Below, one piece after another: positions 3,196 to 17,287 of a stretch of DNA of 64,000 nucleotides. Origin of the DNA: Thioclava sp. ES.031 (GTDB taxonomy: Bacteria; Pseudomonadota; Alphaproteobacteria; Rhodobacterales; Rhodobacteraceae); assembly GCF_002563775.1 (NCBI RefSeq), contig NZ_PDJO01000001.1:3226501-3290500 (forward strand). Reading direction: 5' to 3'. Each line of letters begins with the position of its first letter. Position 1 is the stretch's first letter. The position numbers and the translations under genes are program-made. A model generated the notes under the pieces. That model did no database searches and was not told the DNA's origin. It saw nothing but the letters and a program-made list of their open reading frames with translations.

Positions 3196-4380
3196 ATGCC
3201 GATCGAAAACGTGCACTTCAGCGAACTCGAATACTCCCGCCGGATCGCGCTCGTGCGTGCGGCGATGGCGCAACGCGAGATCGACATTCTCTTCATCACC
3301 AACCCCTCGAACCAGTTCTGGCTGACGGGCTATGACGGCTGGTCCTTCTACACCCATCAGGGGGTGATCCTGCCGATGGAAGGCGCGCCCTACTGGTGGG
3401 GGCGCTTCATGGATGCCAATGGCGCGCGCCGCACCGTCTGGATGGAGGAGGAGAACATCCTTCATTACAACGACGCGATGGTGCAATCCGACATCATGCA
3501 CCCGATGGAAGACCTCGCCTCGCACCTGCGGATCATGGGCTACGGCAAGGCCCGGATCGGTGTCGAGATGGAGACCTATTTCTACACCGCGAAGGCGCAT
3601 GCGACGCTCTATGAAGGGCTGCCCGAGGCCACACTGCTCGACGCCTCGGTGCTGGTGAACTGGCAGCGCCTGATCAAATCCGACGAGGAGCTGCGCTTCA
3701 TGCGCCGCGCCGCGCGGATTTCCGAACTGGTGATCGAACGCGCGATGGAACTGGCCGAGCCGGGGCTGCGCAAGCACGATCTAGTGGGCGAGCTCTATCG
3801 TACCGCCGTGCAGGGCGAGGAAGACAGCTGGGGCGATTACCCGGCCATCGTGCCGATGCTGCCCTCGGGCCCCGACGCCTCCGCGCCGCACCTGACATGG
3901 AACGGCGAGGCGCTGAAGGCGGGCGAGGCGACCTTCGTCGAACAATCGGGCTGCTACCGCCGCTATCACGCGCCGCTCTGCCGCACCGTGTTCCTCGGCA
4001 AACCGCCGCAACACATGATCGACGCGTCCGAGGCCCTGACCGAAGGGCTGAACGCAGGGATCGAGGTCGCCCGCGCCGGCAACCGCGCCTGCGACATCGC
4101 GCGCGCGCTGAATGTAGAACTCGCCAAGGTCGGCATCGAACGGCCCAACCGCGCGGGCTATGCGGTGGGCTGCTCCTACCCGCCGGATTGGGGCGAGCAC
4201 ACCGTCTCGATCCGCGACACCGACGAGACGATCCTGGAGCCCGGCATGACCTTCCACTTCATGCCCGGCCTCTGGATGGATCATTGGGGGATGGAGACGA
4301 CGGAAACCATCGTGATCACCGAGGACGGCCCCGCCCTGCCCCTGTGCAATGTCGAGCGCAAACTGTTCATCAAGGACTGA
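3196..4380 (+). CDS. doeA: Ectoine hydrolase-like M24 family metallohydrolase (DoeA/EutD type)
   Basis: 394-residue protein of the creatinase/aminopeptidase P fold. It resembles ectoine hydrolase DoeA/EutD in length (about 390-400) and in blocks such as NQFWLTGYDGWSFYTHQGV, PYWWGRFMDANG and the C-terminal MTFHFMPGLWMDHWGMETTE. DoeA opens the ectoine ring to N-acetyl-diaminobutyrate. The usual neighbours of an ectoine catabolic operon (uehABC or teaABC transporter, doeB, asnC-type regulator, doeCD) are absent here. The next gene, only 4 bases away, is an ArgE-type deacetylase that could act on the N-acetyl product. That pairing is an inference; other M24 amidohydrolase substrates remain possible. 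Confidence 0.8.
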   Translation: MPIENVHFSELEYSRRIALVRAAMAQREIDILFITNPSNQFWLTGYDGWSFYTHQGVILPMEGAPYWWGRFMDANGARRTVWMEEENILHYNDAMVQSDIMHPMEDLASHLRIMGYGKARIGVEMETYFYTAKAHATLYEGLPEATLLDASVLVNWQRLIKSDEELRFMRRAARISELVIERAMELAEPGLRKHDLVGELYRTAVQGEEDSWGDYPAIVPMLPSGPDASAPHLTWNGEALKAGEATFVEQSGCYRRYHAPLCRTVFLGKPPQHMIDASEALTEGLNAGIEVARAGNRACDIARALNVELAKVGIERPNRAGYAVGCSYPPDWGEHTVSIRDTDETILEPGMTFHFMPGLWMDHWGMETTETIVITEDGPALPLCNVERKLFIKD

Positions 4381-4384
4381 GCCC

Positions 4385-5539
4385 ATGCGGATCGACACCA
4401 CCCGCGCGATCCTCTCGGACCTGATCGCCTACCCGACGATTTCGACCGACAGCAATCTGCCGATCATCCACTATATCGCGGACCGGCTGGAAACCGTCGG
4501 CGCGGCAGTGGAGGTGATGATCGACGAGAGCGGCCACAAGGCGAACCTCTTCGCGACACTGGGCGCGCCGCGCGACGGCGGGCTGGTGCTGTCGGGCCAT
4601 TCGGACGTGGTGCCGGTCACCGATCAGGACTGGACCGGCGATCCGTTCGACATGACCGAGCGCGACGGCAAGCTCTACGGGCGCGGTGCCTGCGACATGA
4701 AAGGGTTCATCGCGGCCTGTCTCGGCTCGCTCGACCTCTTGGCCGAGGCCGCGAAAACCCGCCCGATCCATTTCGCCTTCACCCATGACGAGGAGGTCGG
4801 CTGTCTGGGCGCGCAGGAACTGGTGAAGCTGCTCGCGAAACGCCCGGTCAAACCCGCGCTTTGCATCATCGGCGAGCCGACCTCGATGCAGGTCTTCGAC
4901 GGCAACAAGGGCTGCTGCGAATATACCGTGCGCTTCGAGGGTCTGCCGGGTCACAGCTCCGCCCCCGAGAAGGGCGTGAACGCGGTCGAATACGCGGTGC
5001 GCTACATCAACCGCCTGTTCGAGCTGCGCGCCGAACTTGTCAAACGCTGCCCCGAAGGCTCGCGCTTCGACCCGCCGCAGACGACGCTCAACGTGGGCGC
5101 GCTGAAAGGCGGCATCTCGCATAACGTGATCGCGCCCCGTGCCGAACTGGCCTGGGAAATGCGCCCGATCAACGCCGCCGACATGGAGTTCGTCAAAGGC
5201 GAGATCGCGAGCTACGTCGAAGACACGCTGCTGCCCGAGATGCGTGCCATCGCGCCAGAGGCCGGGATCGCTACCGAGACCATCGGCGAGGTCGTGGGGC
5301 TCGAGCCGATGGACGACAATGCCGCGCGCGATCTGGTCTTCGCTCTGACGGGTCAGAACCATGCAGGCTGCGTCGCCTTCAACACCGAGGCCGGGCTGTT
5401 CCAGTCGCTCGGGATGGATGCGGTGATCTGCGGGCCCGGCTCGATCGAGCAGGCCCACAAGGCCGACGAATTCGTCTCGCTCGAGCAGATGGATCAGGCG
5501 CTGACGATGCTGGGAAGGCTCGCCAGCGCCCGAACCTGA
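4385..5539 (+). CDS. argE: Acetylornithine deacetylase-like M20 metallopeptidase (ArgE family)
   Basis: 384-residue M20 deacetylase. Metal ligands are visible: H72 and D74 in SGHSDVVPV, D104 in GACDMKG, and the E136-E137 pair in HDEEVGC, followed by the dimerisation block GLPGHSSAP. The start at 4385 lies 4 bases after the doeA-like stop, with AAGGA just upstream inside that gene, so the two are probably translationally coupled. The family makes ornithine from N-acetylornithine. Here the partner suggests deacetylation of N-acetyl-diaminobutyrate, replacing the DoeB used elsewhere, but arginine metabolism cannot be excluded. It converges on bhcA, with 6 bases between the stops. Confidence 0.85.
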   Translation: MRIDTTRAILSDLIAYPTISTDSNLPIIHYIADRLETVGAAVEVMIDESGHKANLFATLGAPRDGGLVLSGHSDVVPVTDQDWTGDPFDMTERDGKLYGRGACDMKGFIAACLGSLDLLAEAAKTRPIHFAFTHDEEVGCLGAQELVKLLAKRPVKPALCIIGEPTSMQVFDGNKGCCEYTVRFEGLPGHSSAPEKGVNAVEYAVRYINRLFELRAELVKRCPEGSRFDPPQTTLNVGALKGGISHNVIAPRAELAWEMRPINAADMEFVKGEIASYVEDTLLPEMRAIAPEAGIATETIGEVVGLEPMDDNAARDLVFALTGQNHAGCVAFNTEAGLFQSLGMDAVICGPGSIEQAHKADEFVSLEQMDQALTMLGRLASART

Positions 5540-5545
5540 CCGCTC

Positions 5546-6739
5546 TTACGCGGCGGCTTGTCGCACAGGGGTGGCGGCGGTCTCGCGGTAATGCGCCTGG
5601 GCTGCGGCAACCCCGCTGCCCAGCTCCACCGGCAGGCCGAGATCGACCATCGCCATCTCGGCCGTGGCCAGCCCCGAGAGCGCCATCACATCGGTCATCA
5701 GACCCAGATGCCCGATGCGGAAGACCTTGCCCGCGACATCGCCCAGCCCGCCCCCGAAGGCCACGCCATAGGTGTTGAGCGCCTGCGCCACGATCCGGCT
5801 CGCGTCGAACCCGTCCGGCGCACGCACCGCGCTGACGCTGTTGGAGTAGAGATCGGGCGAGACGGCGCAAAGCTCCATCCCCCAGGCCGCCACCGAACGG
5901 CGCACGCCTTCCGCGATCCGGGCATGGCGGGCGAAGACATTGCCCAGCCCTTCCTCCAGCAGCATGTCGCAGGACGCTTTCAACCCGTTCAGCATCCCCA
6001 CCGGCGGCGTGTAGGGATAACCGTTGGCCGCGTAGCCCGTGCGCATGTCGCGAATGTCGAAGAAGCAACGCGGCAGCTTCGCGCCCTCGACCGCCTCCAG
6101 CGCCTTTTGCGAGAACCCGGTGATGGCGAGGCCCGGCGGCAGCATGAAGCCTTTCTGGCTGCCGGTGACGGCCACATCGACGCCCCAGTCATCCATCCGG
6201 AACTCCATCGACCCGATCGAGCTGACGCCATCCACGAAGAACAGCGCCGGATGCCCCGCCGCATCCATCGCGCGCCGGATGCCCGCGACATCCGAGGTCA
6301 CGCCGGTTGCGGTCTCGTTATGAGTGGCGAGCACCGCCTTGATCTGGTGGCCCGTATCGGCGCCGAGGATGTCTGCGAAGCGCTCGACCGGGATGCCCTC
6401 GCCCCAGGCCACACTGACCACCTCGACCTCCAGCCCGTAGCGCTGGCACATGTCGATCCATTTATGGCTGAACATCCCATTGCGGCAGGCCAGAACCTTG
6501 TCGCCGGGCGAGAGCGTATTGGTGATCGCCGTCTCCCAGCCCCCGCTGCCGGTCGCGGGGAAGACGAAGGCCTCGCCCGTGGTCGTCTTGAGCACCTTCT
6601 TCACACCGTCCAGCGCCGGGTGGATGATATCGGCGAAACCGGGGCTGCGGTGATCCATCGTCGGAATATCGACGGCTTTGCGCAACGTCTCGGGGATGTT
6701 GGTCGGGCCCGGAATGAAAACGGGATTGAGATGGATCAT
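5546..6739 (-). CDS. bhcA: Aspartate/serine-glyoxylate aminotransferase, BhcA-like
   Basis: Class V, fold-type I PLP aminotransferase of 397 residues. The PLP lysine is K196 in VTGSQKGFMLPPG, preceded by D170 in FFVDGVSSIGSM. The N-terminus NPVFIPGPTNIPETLRKAVD and the C-terminal LGSGVAAAQAHYRET look like BhcA, the L-aspartate:glyoxylate aminotransferase of the beta-hydroxyaspartate cycle, which makes glycine and oxaloacetate. The ATG at 6739 is chosen because GGAGGAGG precedes it; the frame runs 31 codons further but without conservation. A divergent IclR-type regulator matches the bhcR-bhcA arrangement, but bhcB, bhcC and bhcD are not here. A plain serine-glyoxylate aminotransferase is the alternative. 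Confidence 0.8.
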   Translation of the reverse strand: MIHLNPVFIPGPTNIPETLRKAVDIPTMDHRSPGFADIIHPALDGVKKVLKTTTGEAFVFPATGSGGWETAITNTLSPGDKVLACRNGMFSHKWIDMCQRYGLEVEVVSVAWGEGIPVERFADILGADTGHQIKAVLATHNETATGVTSDVAGIRRAMDAAGHPALFFVDGVSSIGSMEFRMDDWGVDVAVTGSQKGFMLPPGLAITGFSQKALEAVEGAKLPRCFFDIRDMRTGYAANGYPYTPPVGMLNGLKASCDMLLEEGLGNVFARHARIAEGVRRSVAAWGMELCAVSPDLYSNSVSAVRAPDGFDASRIVAQALNTYGVAFGGGLGDVAGKVFRIGHLGLMTDVMALSGLATAEMAMVDLGLPVELGSGVAAAQAHYRETAATPVRQAAA

Positions 6740-11927: not shown

Positions 11928-12321
11928 GTCTTCCTCCCATATGTAGCGGGATTCATTGTTGGATGGATCTGAGGCCCCAAGCGAAGCCTCCGCGCTACGC
12001 GGCGTAGTGTGCGGATGTAACAGGAACAAAACAAGAGAGTGATTTCGTTTTCGCTTTGACGCTCGGTCGCGTTACCCGATGCGGAGCCGTGCCTCCTCAA
12101 TCCCTATTTTTCATAGGAATTTCGAAGTTTCTCGAAGATAGGCCGATCCAGCGCTCACGATTTTGTGAAGCGCTTTTTTGCGCGATTCGACGAGAACCGA
12201 ACAAAAACCGACAGCTCCGCGCAATGCCCGAGCATGTTTCTCCCCGCCCCCGCCGCGCTTTGCCGAATCCCTCCGATTTGTTAGCCTGTTGAAATGGTTC
12301 AACTCGGTTCGGATCATCGTC
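11928..12321. other. 394-bp intergenic region between ugpB and the 12322 operon
   Basis: Divergent promoter space. A perfect palindrome CTACGC-G-GCGTAG lies at 11995-12007, about 70 bases before ugpB, and could be an operator. A small open frame across 12056-12292 has no coding character. Otherwise I see only AT-richer patches near 12015-12050 and 12165-12215, compatible with promoters. Confidence 0.4.
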
Positions 12322-12792
12322 ATGTTCGTTGCGTCGTATCAGTTTCCTGCCTTTCCGATCCTTGCCGCGGCAGGGATCGCCCTCGCATCGACGGGTGCAG
12401 CATTCGCCCAAAGCTCCGCTGAGAACCCCGCCCTGCGCTGGGATCAGGCCGAATGCCTGCGCGATCATGCGACCGATTACTTCGAACGCCATGACTTCCC
12501 GTCGATCCTCTTCGTGGGCTTTTGCGAGGACGGGATTTTCGACCCCTCCGCCGCAGAGATCGCAAAGGGGACGAGCCGCAATTCCGCCATCGACTCCGAA
12601 GGCCTGCCGCGGCTGAAATCCGGCGCCGTCATCCCCGCCAATCCCAAGGCGGCGGTGCTGGTGCTGACGCGCGCACAACTCGAATGCCTACATGACGAGT
12701 TTGACCGCGTCGCGCGCAAGCAGGTCGCGAAGCTCGACGAGACAACCGAAATTCCGGTGGCCGAGCTTGATTTCTCGGGATGCCCGCAGTGA
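12322..12792 (+). CDS. Secreted protein of unknown function, four cysteines
   Basis: 156 residues. An N-terminal signal peptide ends near ASTGAAFAQS, and the mature part of about 125 residues has four cysteines (AECLRDH, GFCEDG, LECLHDE, FSGCPQ) that could make two disulfides in the periplasm. I do not recognise a family. The next gene starts 13 bases before this one ends, so it is the first cistron of a three-gene unit with the membrane protein at 12780 and the ClpP/LprI-like protein at 13412. The start was chosen for the signal peptide; the frame is open further upstream. Confidence 0.7.
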   Translation: MFVASYQFPAFPILAAAGIALASTGAAFAQSSAENPALRWDQAECLRDHATDYFERHDFPSILFVGFCEDGIFDPSAAEIAKGTSRNSAIDSEGLPRLKSGAVIPANPKAAVLVLTRAQLECLHDEFDRVARKQVAKLDETTEIPVAELDFSGCPQ

Positions 12793-13424
12793 GCGCGGGG
12801 CAGACGCCGCCCCCTGCCGCAGACGCCCCCAATGTGCCCAGAGACGCGCCTGAAACGGATACCGCCCCGCCCGAAGTCGCGTCCCGGGAGCGCATAAGCC
12901 TGCTACGGATCATCGAAGCGGGGTCGTGGGCCGCCACGATCATCGCCCTCGGCTTCACCGGCTGGCAAATCTTCCAATGGCGCGAGGACCGGAAGGCTGA
13001 TCTCTCGCTCGAAATGGTCGCGCGGTTTTCCGACCTCGAATATGCGGGCCGCGCGCGCCGCCAGCTCGCGCAATTCTGGTGGGAGAATTCCGACGATCTG
13101 GCGAAGGTGACGGCCGTCGATGGCGGCATCCCCCCGGCGCAGCGGCGGAACTTCCTCGATCTGCTGTTCCAAAGACAACCGGCGCCGCAACGCCAGATGC
13201 AATTCGCCGCCGTGTCGGAAATGGCGAATTTCTTCGATCAGGTCGAGTTGTGCATCGCGACCAAGCGTTGCGACGCGCAGATCGCCACGGATTACTTCTG
13301 CGGCTACGCCGCCAACTTCGCCGACCTCTACCAAGGCCCGCTCACCCAAGTCCGTGAGACCTTCGGCACGGCGGGTCTCGGGACCGGCCTGCAGAATTTC
13401 GTGGAGGCCAGATGCGACGACTGA
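12780..13424 (+). CDS. Membrane-anchored protein of unknown function (DUF4760-like)
   Basis: 214 residues: a proline-rich N-terminus, one membrane helix around residues 43-64 (IIEAGSWAATIIALGFTGWQ), then a soluble alpha-helical region rich in aromatic residues with SLEMVARFSDLEYAGRAR and ATDYFCGYAANFADLY. The layout of one helix followed by a helical domain is like DUF4760-type proteins, a loose match. It overlaps the upstream gene by 13 bases and the downstream gene by 13 bases. A GTG at 12789, overlapping the upstream stop as GTGA, is an alternative start. Probable partner of the two exported proteins. Confidence 0.65.
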   Translation: MPAVSAGQTPPPAADAPNVPRDAPETDTAPPEVASRERISLLRIIEAGSWAATIIALGFTGWQIFQWREDRKADLSLEMVARFSDLEYAGRARRQLAQFWWENSDDLAKVTAVDGGIPPAQRRNFLDLLFQRQPAPQRQMQFAAVSEMANFFDQVELCIATKRCDAQIATDYFCGYAANFADLYQGPLTQVRETFGTAGLGTGLQNFVEARCDD

Positions 13425-14113
13425 TCCCAGCCCTCGCCGCGCTGAGCGTCCTCGGCATCGCCCCACCGGCCCCCGCCGCCGATATAGACTGGGCACCGCC
13501 GATCACGGATGAGTTCGTGTTGCCTTATATCGGCGTGGATATGGCCACCGGGACCAAGCCGGGCGACAGCTTCGATTTCAAGAACGCGTTGCACATTCAA
13601 ATCAGAGGCGAAATCACGCCCGGCGACGCAGAAACATTCAGAAACCTGATCACCGACAAGGCCAGCGAGATCTTCGATCCGATTTCGGGCGGGGTGAATA
13701 TGCGCGCTGTCGTCGTCTCTCTCGACAGTGACGGCGGCGATTTCTATGAGGGCCTCAAACTCTCAGACTCGATCCGCGGCTTCGCTACATTCGTCGGAAA
13801 GGGCGACCGGTGCCTCTCTGCCTGTGCGATCGCATTTCTGGGCGGCTCAGAACGGATGCTGCGCGGCTACCCGATGTGGAACGCGCGATACGTTCACACC
13901 GAGGGCGTCGTCGGATTTCACGCGCCATTCTCGAGCCTCTCGAATACGCTGATGATCCCCGATGGCACGCCGTTTTCGGGCACGCTCGGCAATCAGATCG
14001 CCACGCAATTCTACGCGCAGGCTCAGGACGCCATCAACGAACTCACGAAGCGGATGGGGACATGGAATATCGCTCCGGGCTTCGTCTTCGAAATGATCGG
14101 CAAGAAATATCAA
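13412..14113 (+). pseudogene. 5' part of an exported ClpP-like/LprI-like protein gene, interrupted by a transposon
   Basis: Starts MRRLIPALAALSVLGIAPPA (signal peptide) with GGAGG just upstream. The following 230 residues look like a periplasmic ClpP/crotonase-fold protein: a strand-helix block VVVSLDSDGGDFYEGLKLSD, then DRCLSACAIAFLGGSERM, where the Ser after Cys sits where ClpP-like proteins place the nucleophile. The gene is cut at 14113 by an insertion element; the frame then reads 12 codons into the element and stops at 14149. The 3' part resumes at 16331. Removing the element and one target copy rejoins the frames exactly and gives a 552-residue protein. Confidence 0.85.
14106..14113. 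repeat. Left target-site duplication (AATATCAA)
   Basis: 8-bp direct repeat abutting the left end of the element, identical to 16323-16330 on the right side. An 8-bp duplication is typical of the IS1595 family. Confidence 0.95.
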
Positions 14114-14137
14114 GGGGGTGTCCGCAAACTGTGTTGG
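14114..14137 (+). repeat. Left terminal inverted repeat
   Basis: Begins GGGGGTGTCCGCAAAC and continues TGTGTTGG. It matches the reverse complement of 16299-16322 at 23 of 24 positions. Confidence 0.93.
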
Positions 14138-14158
14138 TGTGCTTCGTGATCTTTTGAA

Positions 14159-15190
14159 ATGGCTTATATCTCTCCGCTTTGCCCGCGGAGGATGCCCTTG
14201 CTACACCACGACTTTCGCCGTTTTCTCAACGCCCTCAACCGCCTGAACCCGGCCCAGATCGAGGATACCCAAACGAAGATCCGAGATCTCCGGAGAAAGA
14301 CGGAAGCAATCTCGGAGATCGAAGCACGGACAAACCAAGAACACAAGTGTCCGTTCTGCGGTGACGAACGGCGCCAGAAGTGGGGGCGCACCCGCACCAA
14401 GATCCAACGCTACCGATGCTCCGGTTGCAAGAAGACCTATTCCGGCCGCACCGGCAGCGCCATCGGCCGCATTCATCGCCCGGACCTGTTCATGGTGGCG
14501 CTGCGGGATATGCTGGGCACCTCCGCACCGAAGTCGGTGCGCAAGCTCGCCACGCAGCTCGACGTCAACAAATACACGGTCTGGCGCTGGCGGATGCTCG
14601 TATTCTTGATCATCGCGAACAGCAGCGTGGCGGCGAGTTTCTCGGGAATCATCGAGGCGGATGAAACCTACCAGCGGGAGTCGCGCAAGGGTTCTCGCGA
14701 ATGGGTTCGTCACTTCGCAGATCCAAAGAATGTCGCGGCGCCGCCCCGTCCCAGGTGGGAAGATTACACGACCAAAGGGCTGAAGATGATGCGAGGGCTC
14801 TCCAGATGGCAACTCCCGATTCTTACGGTCGCTGACCGAGGTGGGGCGCGCCTTTTCAGGCGCCTTCCCAACCGCAAGGGCGTGACACTCCAGCGCGCAA
14901 TGAAGCCGCTGGTGCCCGGCGATGCCGTGCTCTGTTCGGATGGCGCGAATGGCTACATGAACCTGGCGGCAGCGGTCGGCTTGGAGCACTTCGTAGTCGG
15001 CAGCAAGCCAGGCACGCGCGTGGCTTCAGGCTGCTATCACATCCAGAATGTGAACTCCCTGCACGCCCGCTACAAAAGGTTCATCAAGCCCTTCTGTGGA
15101 CCGGCCACGAAGAACCTCTGCGGCTACATACGATGGCTGGAGGCCAGGCTTGCAGGGGTGAAGCCCGCTGACATACTCCGGATAGCCTGA
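14159..15190 (+). CDS. IS1595-family transposase
   Basis: 343 residues. A zinc ribbon (C64, C67, C87, C90: CPFCGDE, then YRCSGCKKTYSGRTGS) is followed by a helix-turn-helix-like segment KLATQLDVNKYTVWRW and the catalytic core: D168 in GIIEADET, D261 in VLCSDGANGY and the HIQNVNSLHARYK block, where Asn rather than Glu sits at the third catalytic position. This fits the DDNK variant described for much of IS1595. No good ribosome site precedes the ATG at 14159; an in-frame ATG at 14192 directly follows GCGGAGG. The gene looks intact. Confidence 0.92.
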   Translation: MAYISPLCPRRMPLLHHDFRRFLNALNRLNPAQIEDTQTKIRDLRRKTEAISEIEARTNQEHKCPFCGDERRQKWGRTRTKIQRYRCSGCKKTYSGRTGSAIGRIHRPDLFMVALRDMLGTSAPKSVRKLATQLDVNKYTVWRWRMLVFLIIANSSVAASFSGIIEADETYQRESRKGSREWVRHFADPKNVAAPPRPRWEDYTTKGLKMMRGLSRWQLPILTVADRGGARLFRRLPNRKGVTLQRAMKPLVPGDAVLCSDGANGYMNLAAAVGLEHFVVGSKPGTRVASGCYHIQNVNSLHARYKRFIKPFCGPATKNLCGYIRWLEARLAGVKPADILRIA

Positions 15191-15205
15191 GCGACGGCCC
15201 AAGTA

Positions 15206-16192
15206 TCAGAAAGGGATCTCATCATCCTCAGCAGGTTGCTCAGGGAGTGCGCCGGCAGGAAGTGGAAGGTTCGTCGTGATGAAGAGATTGAGAATATCGC
15301 CTCGATCCATGAACATCACCTGTGATCGTTTTGAAGCGTCGAGCTTTCCGCCCAGCCAGTTCCTGGCCTGCTTCGTGATCTCGCCCCCGGCTACGATGAA
15401 CGCATGGTCAACCAAGACCCTCCGGTTCAGCTCTGGATCGAATATTTCGTGGCCCAGCATCATACTGACCTGGTTATGAATCTCTGCGACGTTTGCATTT
15501 CCAGACTTGCCCACTCCAGCGGAGTCCAGCTTTCCCTTCTTTGCCTGGATGCCAAAGTAAAGCACGTGCAGTGTCGGGAGCGTATATTTCATCCAGACAT
15601 CCTTGCCGTATTCCAGGGCCTTATCTTTGTGACCCGCCGCAGTAATGCGGTGGAAACCCAACTGTCGGAACAGGGGTAAGAGCACTTCCTCGATCAGTTC
15701 ATCTTCGGAGCACCGGTCCAGATAGTCGGAAAGATGCTTCCCACGCGCGATCTCCACTGACGACAAGGGACGATGAGGATTTACGAGTTGGGCGATCGTG
15801 TTCGTCTTGATGTGCCGCATCTGGGCGATGGCGCCATCATCGTAGAAAACTTCCCAACCTTCTCGCCGCAGCACCGTATTCACGGCAGACAGCGCACTGG
15901 CGCGGTCGTCGTCTCCTGTCTGCGCTTCCCCGCTGTCGAGCAGTGTTTGAATGATGCGAATAAACGGGTCGGGAGGAAGTTGTGGCGACTGCTGAGGAAG
16001 CGCCATGACCTCTTCAAGCCGATCCGCCACCCAGCGCCAACGTGTGCTGCCGTCATGGACATACTCAAGGTCGCAGTCCTCGAAAAATTCGGTAAGGAAG
16101 GAGCTGGAACGGTAAGGGAAATACGGACCCGCCTCCTCGTCCCCGCAGATCATGCGAGCGAGCTCACGAAGACTCCTCTTCTTCCAGTCCAT
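15206..16192 (-). CDS. Transposon passenger: AbiJ-like N-terminus with a Mrr-like PD-(D/E)XK nuclease domain (putative)
   Basis: 328 residues from an ATG preceded by GGAG (an ATG at 16213 would add 7 residues). Residues about 1-65 (SLRELARMICGD, PYFPYRSSSFLTEFF) resemble N-terminal domains of AbiJ-type abortive-infection proteins. Residues about 150-285 look like a Mrr-type restriction-endonuclease fold, with E194-Y-G-K-D198 and then Q216-A-K218 in YFGIQAKKGK giving the D...QxK catalytic pattern. The C-terminus is acidic. It converges on the transposase with a 15-base gap and lies wholly inside the element. A DNA-cleaving defence or element-maintenance role is inferred; neither domain assignment has been tested. 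Confidence 0.6.
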   Translation of the reverse strand: MDWKKRSLRELARMICGDEEAGPYFPYRSSSFLTEFFEDCDLEYVHDGSTRWRWVADRLEEVMALPQQSPQLPPDPFIRIIQTLLDSGEAQTGDDDRASALSAVNTVLRREGWEVFYDDGAIAQMRHIKTNTIAQLVNPHRPLSSVEIARGKHLSDYLDRCSEDELIEEVLLPLFRQLGFHRITAAGHKDKALEYGKDVWMKYTLPTLHVLYFGIQAKKGKLDSAGVGKSGNANVAEIHNQVSMMLGHEIFDPELNRRVLVDHAFIVAGGEITKQARNWLGGKLDASKRSQVMFMDRGDILNLFITTNLPLPAGALPEQPAEDDEIPF

Positions 16193-16298
16193 GACAGATT
16201 TCTCCTGCATCATTCCGTTTGAGTGAATGTGGGGCTATTTCAACAAGGGCGAAAGAAGATACTCGGTTACCGGAAAGAGTGCTGGAGTCGAGCGGGCG

Positions 16299-16322
16299 CC
16301 AACACGGTTTGCGGACACCCCC
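16299..16322 (-). repeat. Right terminal inverted repeat
   Basis: Ends in GTTTGCGGACACCCCC, the complement of the left end, with one mismatch over 24 bp. Confidence 0.93.
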
Positions 16323-16330
16323 AATATCAA
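16323..16330. repeat. Right target-site duplication (AATATCAA)
   Basis: Identical to 14106-14113. Confidence 0.95.
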
Positions 16331-17287
16331 AAGGACGACGACAGGCCGCTGGGCGAGCAGTACCTGCTGATCAATTCCTATAACCGGCTCGATCAGACCA
16401 AAACGACTGTCCTTGCCGACCGCGCCCCGAACCCGGCCAATGTGGACATTCTGGGTGCCATAAACGTCTGCGAATTCGTGGTATTCGCAAATACCGGCCG
16501 CCGGGTGATGACTGGCCCGCCCGTATCTTCAGAGACCATCCCGGAGCGCGGCCTGATCCGCTTGTGGTCACGTTACTCAAGCTTCGGACAGGCGACAGAA
16601 GAAGGCCTGAAAACCTCCGGCGGCTCCCGCCCTCGGCTGCTGAGATCCAAGATCGGCCCGCTCACGTCGAACGTCCTTTTGCCCGCGGCGGGCGACGACT
16701 CCTATTACCTGCAGGCGAAGCTCGCAGGTCCCGGCCGCGTCGACTGCAACGTGTTCAAGGACGCTGACGGGCGCTGGTATGTCAAAACCTACAATATCGA
16801 CATCCATGCCAACGATACGTTTCTCACGATGGACGGGACGACAGCCACGCAGCGCGATGTGCTCGACTACAAGGGCCCTTACCCGATCAACGATTTCACC
16901 ATCCTCGGCCCCGACGGCGTCTGGAACAACTTCCCCGCCATCGAGCCCTCCGAAGAGCTCGCCCCGATCCTCGCCCAATTCCCCGATGTCACCGGCCCCA
17001 GCTTCGACTGCACCGGCAAGCTCGATCCGGCGGCGGAGGTGATCTGCCTGATCCGCCCGCTCGGCCAGCTCGACGGCGTGCTGGGCAAGCTCTACCCCCG
17101 CGCCGTCGCGAAGGACGCAGACGGCACGAAGCAGAGCCAGCGGCATTGGCTCAAGATCCGCGACCGCGCCTGTCGTCCGGGCGGGATCGACACGAACGAT
17201 CCGCTGCAATTCCGCAGCCTGATCGACTGCCTCACCTACTTCTACGAGATACGCCTGAGAGAGCTCGAGCAGATCGCCTCGAATTAA
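16331..17287 (+). pseudogene. 3' part of the exported ClpP-like/LprI-like protein gene
   Basis: Continues in the frame of 13412-14113 once the element and one duplication copy are removed. It encodes about 318 residues starting KDDDRPLGEQYLLINSYNRL. The C-terminal 90 residues carry a lysozyme-inhibitor LprI-like (DUF1311) pattern: FDCTGKLDPAAEVICLIRPL, LDGVLGKLYPRAV, HWLKIRDRAC, LIDCLTYFYEIRLREL, with paired cysteines. An ATG at 16223 inside the element opens a longer frame, but its first 36 codons come from transposon sequence. Whether this fragment is expressed is unknown; it has no signal peptide. Confidence 0.85.

Follow-up and report, generated by a model that had tools for sequence, protein, structure and literature searches.

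A 64,000-nucleotide stretch of the genome of Thioclava sp. ES.031 (contig NZ_PDJO01000001.1, positions 3,226,501 to 3,290,500), referred to here as the window, contains a transposon of the IS1595 family with one passenger gene, whose insertion has split a chromosomal gene in two. The element spans 2209 bp (14114-16322) and is bounded by terminal inverted repeats of 24 bp at 14114-14137 (plus strand) and 16299-16322 (minus strand). These repeats are complementary at 23 of 24 positions (96%) and were the top match among the long inverted pairs in 13900-16600, in which the runner-up, also 24 nt long, is 71% complementary; similar left ends are found in relatives, and the right end was also recovered by blastn against elements with other cargo. 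On either side, the 8-bp string AATATCAA is read directly as a target site duplication (14106-14113 and 16323-16330). Between the ends lie an open reading frame (ORF) of 343 codons for the transposase (14159-15190, plus strand) and one of 335 codons for a predicted solo PD-(D/E)XK nuclease, the passenger (15206-16213, minus strand), arranged tail to tail with a spacer of 15 nt (15191-15205) separating the stop codons. Alignment with relatives places the start of the transposase probably near the ATG at 14192 (MPLLHHDF) and that of the passenger probably at M8 (16192), which gives a protein of 328 amino acids. The element is present in one copy in its own genome. A preliminary description made from the letters of the DNA had proposed a 2209-bp element with near-perfect 24-bp ends, an 8-bp duplication from a clean insertion and one passenger converging on the transposase; its coordinates are correct, and an IS1595-family transposon with these features is confirmed.

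Short inverted ends and an 8-bp target duplication are features of the IS1595 family, whose subgroups include ISNwi1 and ISPna2. Among 394 genomes of the same bacterial family, the own genome included, 39 contain a 21-base pattern of the end when up to 2 mismatches are allowed, and 1 contains the reversed pattern, which excludes a chance origin of the ends. Empty sites, which the preliminary description had suggested looking for in close strains, were found in three genomes of the same genus (L117, L118, and L119) with flanks 92 to 95% identical: the site reads AATTTCAG (L117, L118) or AATATCAG (L119) and continues directly with AAGGACGACG. The interrupted gene is left as a 5′ part (13412-14113) and a 3′ part (16331-17287), both on the plus strand and recognized from the ORF list and the uninterrupted homologs. 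Excision of 14114-16330 rejoins them, as had been predicted, in a frame of 1,659 bp (552 amino acids) with a single, terminal stop; the homolog in L119 also has 552 amino acids, and those in L117 and L118 extend beyond 553 codons. Exact 8-bp duplications also flank the elements in L002, L083, L086, L088, L144, L145, L151, and L162, and duplications with one mismatch are present in L004, L147, and L149. The duplications of the closer elements are 93% AT over 12 strings, which were chosen by hand, with one copy of each entered where the two copies differ and TTTTCTTT counted twice (L088 and L149); when three elements that are more distant are added, of which two have GC-rich duplications (TGGAGCTG and TGGCGGGA), the AT content drops to 85%. 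In the window, 8-mers with at least 7 AT make up 0.35% of all 8-mers.

The transposase matches the IS1595 model NF033547 with 120.5 bits (cut-off 75) and the zinc domain model of IS1/IS1595 transposases, NF050000, with 30.4 (cut-off 28), in line with the family originally assigned to it; the match to DDE_Tnp_IS1595 of Pfam (20.5 bits) stays below the cut-off of 27 and counts against membership. The catalytic motif of IS1595 transposases is DDNK. Residues D168, D261, and N299 are invariant in all 20 transposases of a chosen, aligned set, and so is K318; of the DDNK type claimed in the preliminary description, the two aspartates and the asparagine stand, whereas the lysine that would complete the motif is not established. 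Relatives of the transposase (E ≤ 1e-30) are present in 32 of the 394 family genomes, the own genome included.

A blastn comparison of the window element with seven closer elements that carry other cargo revealed two common blocks. Block one extends from base 1 to about base 1028-1067, comprises the left end and the transposase, and is 73 to 84% identical in all seven; block two consists of 24 to 25 bp at the right end and is found in six of the seven. Nothing further in common was detected by blastn, and the conserved transposase module ends at about the 15-nt spacer that follows the transposase stop. The space between the blocks is filled differently: by a protein of 139 (L083) or 174 (L147) amino acids, neither of which matches Pfam and both of which look by eye like membrane proteins, by DUF4440 (L086), a glyoxalase-like protein (L088), a 225-amino-acid protein without a match (L144), cupin and MFS genes (L145), or ArsR and MFS genes (L149). 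In the more distant L151, Pfam identifies a helix-turn-helix (HTH) protein gene and a RelE-type toxin gene, and a pair similar by eye is present in L162. Paired ends with matching or one-mismatch duplications delimit the elements in L083, L086, L088, L144, L145, L147, L149, L151, and L162; the transposase is broken in L086 and L149. L099 and similar, more distant elements measure 1,147 bp and have space for a transposase alone. By this comparison, the transposon appears as one of a set whose members differ in the cargo at one slot, a point absent from the preliminary description. Two smaller observations concern these relatives. Additional ORFs in L162 resemble another transposase, and next to the full element in L083 lies a stretch of 562 bp (424-985) that has ends of this kind and lacks a transposase; the 8-mers on its two sides differ at one position, and it is possibly a nonautonomous derivative.

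The combination of this transposase with this passenger was also looked for elsewhere, and it recurs in three elements. In Sagittula marina (L002), the element is again 2209 bp long, with the duplication AAAAAAAA, and its transposase and passenger are 97.7% and 99.1% identical to those of the window. A metagenome-assembled genome of the Geminicoccaceae (L004) has the same pair in 2,206 bp with a broken passenger, and in Pseudorhodobacter aquimaris (L026) the contig ends within the passenger, and the transposase has an in-frame stop. Paracoccus salsus (L003) has kept the passenger and the right end without a transposase. The preliminary description had named two refuting outcomes, and neither was encountered: the pair recurs, and the site is intact in relatives that lack the element.

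The histories of backbone and cargo differ. A tree of the first 1,060 bases of 13 elements groups the nuclease carrier L026 with the DUF4440 carrier L086 (support 96/98), and forcing the four nuclease carriers into one clade costs 41 log units and is rejected by the approximately unbiased test (p-AU, 0.00116); a protein tree placing L004 apart was known before this test. L004 and window/L002, with the nuclease, and L144, with other cargo, form one group (92/95) that is internally unresolved. Over the first ~700 bases, L026 is 83 to 88% identical to L086 versus 69 to 83% to the window, and the nearness to L086 ends thereafter. In the passenger tree, which omitted the broken passenger of L004, the proteins of the window, L002, L003, and L026 and four database rows form one group (100/99) nested among solo relatives. 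Since a single clade of nuclease carriers is rejected by the transposase tree, the modules have probably been reshuffled, and the simplest reading of the trees would be a single capture of the nuclease followed by exchange of the transposase module. Independent captures at the same junction are less likely.

The C-terminal domain of the passenger (about residues 153-335; 15206-15757, minus strand) has a PD-(D/E)XK fold according to structure comparison of the model, with AspBHI, FokI, and MspJI as nearest matches, as had been surmised from the sequence. Residues D205, Q223, and K225 are invariant in 162 of 162 alignment rows and are probably catalytic; the pattern is Q-x-K and not D/E-x-K. MspJI likewise has a Q-x-K site. 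What sets the passenger apart from MspJI, AspBHI, and FokI, with which it shares the C-terminal fold and the D...Q-x-K pattern, is the unmatched N terminus and the lack of any sequence relative in the PDB. In the fold model, the N-terminal domain (residues 1-150; 15764-16213, minus strand) consists of five helices and two strands, a fold for which no match was found among solved structures. The second half of the preliminary claim, an AbiJ-like N terminus, is not established: AbiJ_NTD3 (PF18860) is matched in 2 of 42 relatives (best E value, 0.056), and when profiles were compared, two AbiJ_NTD3 proteins aligned over 44 columns with a probability of 10.8%, or 18.0% with a better cut. Mrr_cat (PF04471) is matched in 4 of the 42 relatives (best E value, 0.021). 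According to PMC3710099, AbiJ-NTD1 and AbiJ-NTD2 are fused to Mrr-type and AbiJ-NTD3 to DUF2726 nuclease domains. The passenger shares with the fusions described there a domain of roughly 140 amino acids ahead of a nuclease; the relation of its N terminus to AbiJ_NTD3 is borderline.

The passenger belongs to a large family that is mostly found outside the transposon, which the preliminary description did not mention. A homolog search retrieved 3,890 proteins, of which 120 were listed, and the family is mostly solo. The window passenger has no match in NCBIfam at an E value of ≤1, and its single Pfam match (VMAP-M20, 16.7) is below the cut-off of 27; none of 42 relatives matches PHROGs or NCBIfam at an E value of ≤0.01, and their Pfam matches (E ≤ 0.1) are spread over 12 families, each in at most 4 members. 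Hence, the family is without a name in NCBIfam and PHROGs, with weak and scattered matches in Pfam and PADLOC. Including the own genome, the passenger is present in 4 of the 394 genomes of the family, 5 of 385 of a class sample, and 1 of 16 of the genus, and the fetched flanks in the other three family genomes contain no IS1595 ends. The family is present at 92 fetched loci without the element, three duplicate pairs among them. Relatives 57 to 77% identical to the window passenger occur in several phyla. Relatives are encoded on 44 plasmid records, 36 of which cover most of the passenger length, and on 6 IMG/VR contigs; none were found in 50,697 phage records. DNA like one plasmid-borne Escherichia coli copy is present in 189 of 5,426 complete E. 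coli genomes (about 3.5%), with most of the query covered, an identity of 80 to 90% in nearly all, and 191 of 193 places chromosomal. In the one chromosomal region that was read (L199, E. coli NZ_CP029369.1, 12001-12981), the relative lies in a prophage remnant beside hokD and rem.

What surrounds the solo copies suggests a role in defense. In 6 of 96 loci (L032, L034, L044, L047, L166, and L168), an HsdR-like gene lies 53 to 71 bp upstream on the same strand, and in 5 of 96, two of which are one locus, an ArdC-like gene is nearby; the HsdR of L034 and the ArdC of L022 were identified by Pfam and the others by clustering. In the six HsdR loci, the solo copy is positioned as though it closed a type I restriction operon. 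VapBC, or VapB and PIN genes, are directly upstream in 6 of 13 annotated regions, all on enterobacterial plasmids and probably of one lineage; the neighbors in the remaining regions range from helicases and ABC-three-component genes to metabolic genes. Among the 25 PADLOC families listed for the nearest ORFs are the type I R and S subunits, HamA, QatC, GajB, and Mad5, with one member each, and many are type I specificity models. Some single loci deserve mention. At L043 (1665-4948), genes resembling, by eye, an OLD-type ATPase and a UvrD-like helicase immediately precede the solo copy, and the PADLOC matches of the neighbor set include GajB. Inverted repeats surround the solo relatives in L024 (119 nt, 1-119 and 3392-3510, at a contig end), L018 (23 nt, 4612-4634 and 5999-6021, each palindromic), and L015 (longer and imperfect).

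We consider it rather probable that the element is a compact IS1595 "transporter" insertion sequence (IS) with exchangeable cargo and that its slot holds a solo nuclease, most likely one that cuts incoming DNA. In this model, the transposase would act on the two 24-bp ends and insert the element with an 8-bp duplication, by a chemistry assumed from the IS1595 family; the sites used by the closer relatives are AT-rich. The constant parts are the left end, the transposase, and the right 24 bp, and therefore any gene that sits behind the transposase stop and ahead of a right end could travel; the pattern is given by the comparison, and the capture step is surmised from it. Recombination within the transposase gene may shift cargo among backbones, as the conflicting trees suggest, and a single capture probably brought in the nuclease, whose family otherwise lives alone on plasmids, in prophages, and sometimes beside restriction genes. 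Defense against incoming DNA is our best guess for its role: the nuclease would cut phage or plasmid DNA, and since no methyltransferase accompanies it, the N-terminal domain might recognize a modification or an infection cue. The likeness to MspJI and AspBHI would slightly favor the reading of a modification. More tentative, and in our view doubtful, is the wider proposal that Rhodobacterales harbor a single-slot IS1595 cassette shuttle, composed of a 1.05-kb module and a 24-bp far end, in which any gene may be swapped by recombination and which spreads defense, addiction, and efflux genes, the nuclease being a new single-gene anti-invader system that occurs alone across phyla and, as a relative 80 to 90% identical to one plasmid-borne copy, in ~3.5% of complete E. 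coli genomes.

IS1595 transporter ISs with passengers have been described before (Siguier, Gagnevin and Chandler 2009, as cited in PMC12888890 and PMC3129680). The window element shares with them the size of an IS and a passenger probably unrelated to transposition, and a passenger that lies inside the ends and is absent from relatives with comparable ends fits the definition. It differs in that near-constant ends and transposase modules can be aligned around wholly different cargo, here one solo nuclease; this difference was drawn without a comparison with ISfinder, in which a relative may be catalogued. In PMC12888890, ISPa75-fosZ is a transporter IS whose passenger is likewise downstream of the transposase and inside the ends, but it belongs to the IS66 family and has three transposition ORFs and resistance cargo. 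Because cargo-bearing IS1595 elements were already known, the new part is the nuclease family, and literature searches found neither this family nor the slot comparison in print. The elements are a readable case of very small transposons that gain and trade whole genes, by clean replacement between two fixed points, and the occurrence of a large family without an NCBIfam or PHROGs name in E. coli makes the suspected defense role accessible to experiments.

A number of results weigh against the proposed model. The complete pairs are those of the window and L002 alone, since the passengers of L026 and L004 are damaged, and these two are 98.7% identical; the rejection of a single clade depends on L026, given the unresolved group of L004, L144, and window/L002. 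For the fold, Foldseek gave no match at an E value of ≤0.001, the template modeling scores of the top two structures are 0.29 and 0.28, and the full-length model has a predicted template modeling score (pTM) of 0.55. With respect to defense, the window passenger matches no PADLOC (2023) model at an E value of ≤1, and the best PADLOC match among the 42 relatives is Stk2 (7 members; E value, 7.6e-5), besides four families with one member each. Recurrence in at least 4 loci is limited to the HsdR-like and ArdC-like genes, and some annotated copies are surrounded by metabolic genes. PADLOC returned 120 families for 108 of the 172 nearest ORFs and 8 for 107 control ORFs, an unclean comparison in which redundant models inflate the 120, the controls were chosen differently, and families rather than proteins were counted; for these reasons, we do not claim a measured enrichment of defense genes. 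Pfam yielded 67 families for the same 108 ORFs, with at most 2 members each among the 25 listed, and the neighbors are mixed: nitrogenase-type, AMP-binding, ETF, and thiolase proteins beside caspase, TIR, and HsdR.

A nuclease that acts like a toxin and retains the element by addiction, with cargo in the whole group selected for element stability, would be in keeping with the HTH and RelE-type genes in the slot of L151, the similar pair in L162, and the VapBC genes upstream of solo copies on enterobacterial plasmids. We regard it as unlikely: no antitoxin-like gene was seen in the element, in which the passenger is the sole cargo besides shadow ORFs, most of the 96 solo loci lack a recurrent partner, and glyoxalase-like, MFS, and cupin cargo is not toxin-like. 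If anything, it is even less likely that the passenger was captured as a bystander and serves in housekeeping or DNA repair, in a slot filled randomly, without selection. The patchy distribution in family, class sample, and genus, together with 57 to 77% identity over several phyla, argues for horizontal spread and not for housekeeping. Very improbable is a passenger that assists transposition or target choice. Transposase and passenger have remained adjacent in L002, L004, and L026, but elements with comparable ends and transposases 75 to 86% identical do without the passenger, and the passenger in turn does without the element at the 92 fetched loci and without IS1595 ends in the flanks of the three other family genomes.

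The interrupted gene itself had been labeled ClpP/LprI-like, a label that turned out to be weak: the LprI match, at 18.0 bits, falls short of the cut-off of 22, SppA reaches an E value of 0.079, and the uninterrupted homolog in L117 retrieved nothing better than an E value of 0.29 among PDB sequences. Upstream of it (12178-13424), two mutually overlapping ORFs also overlap the beginning of the split gene, which therefore looks like the last gene in a run of three.

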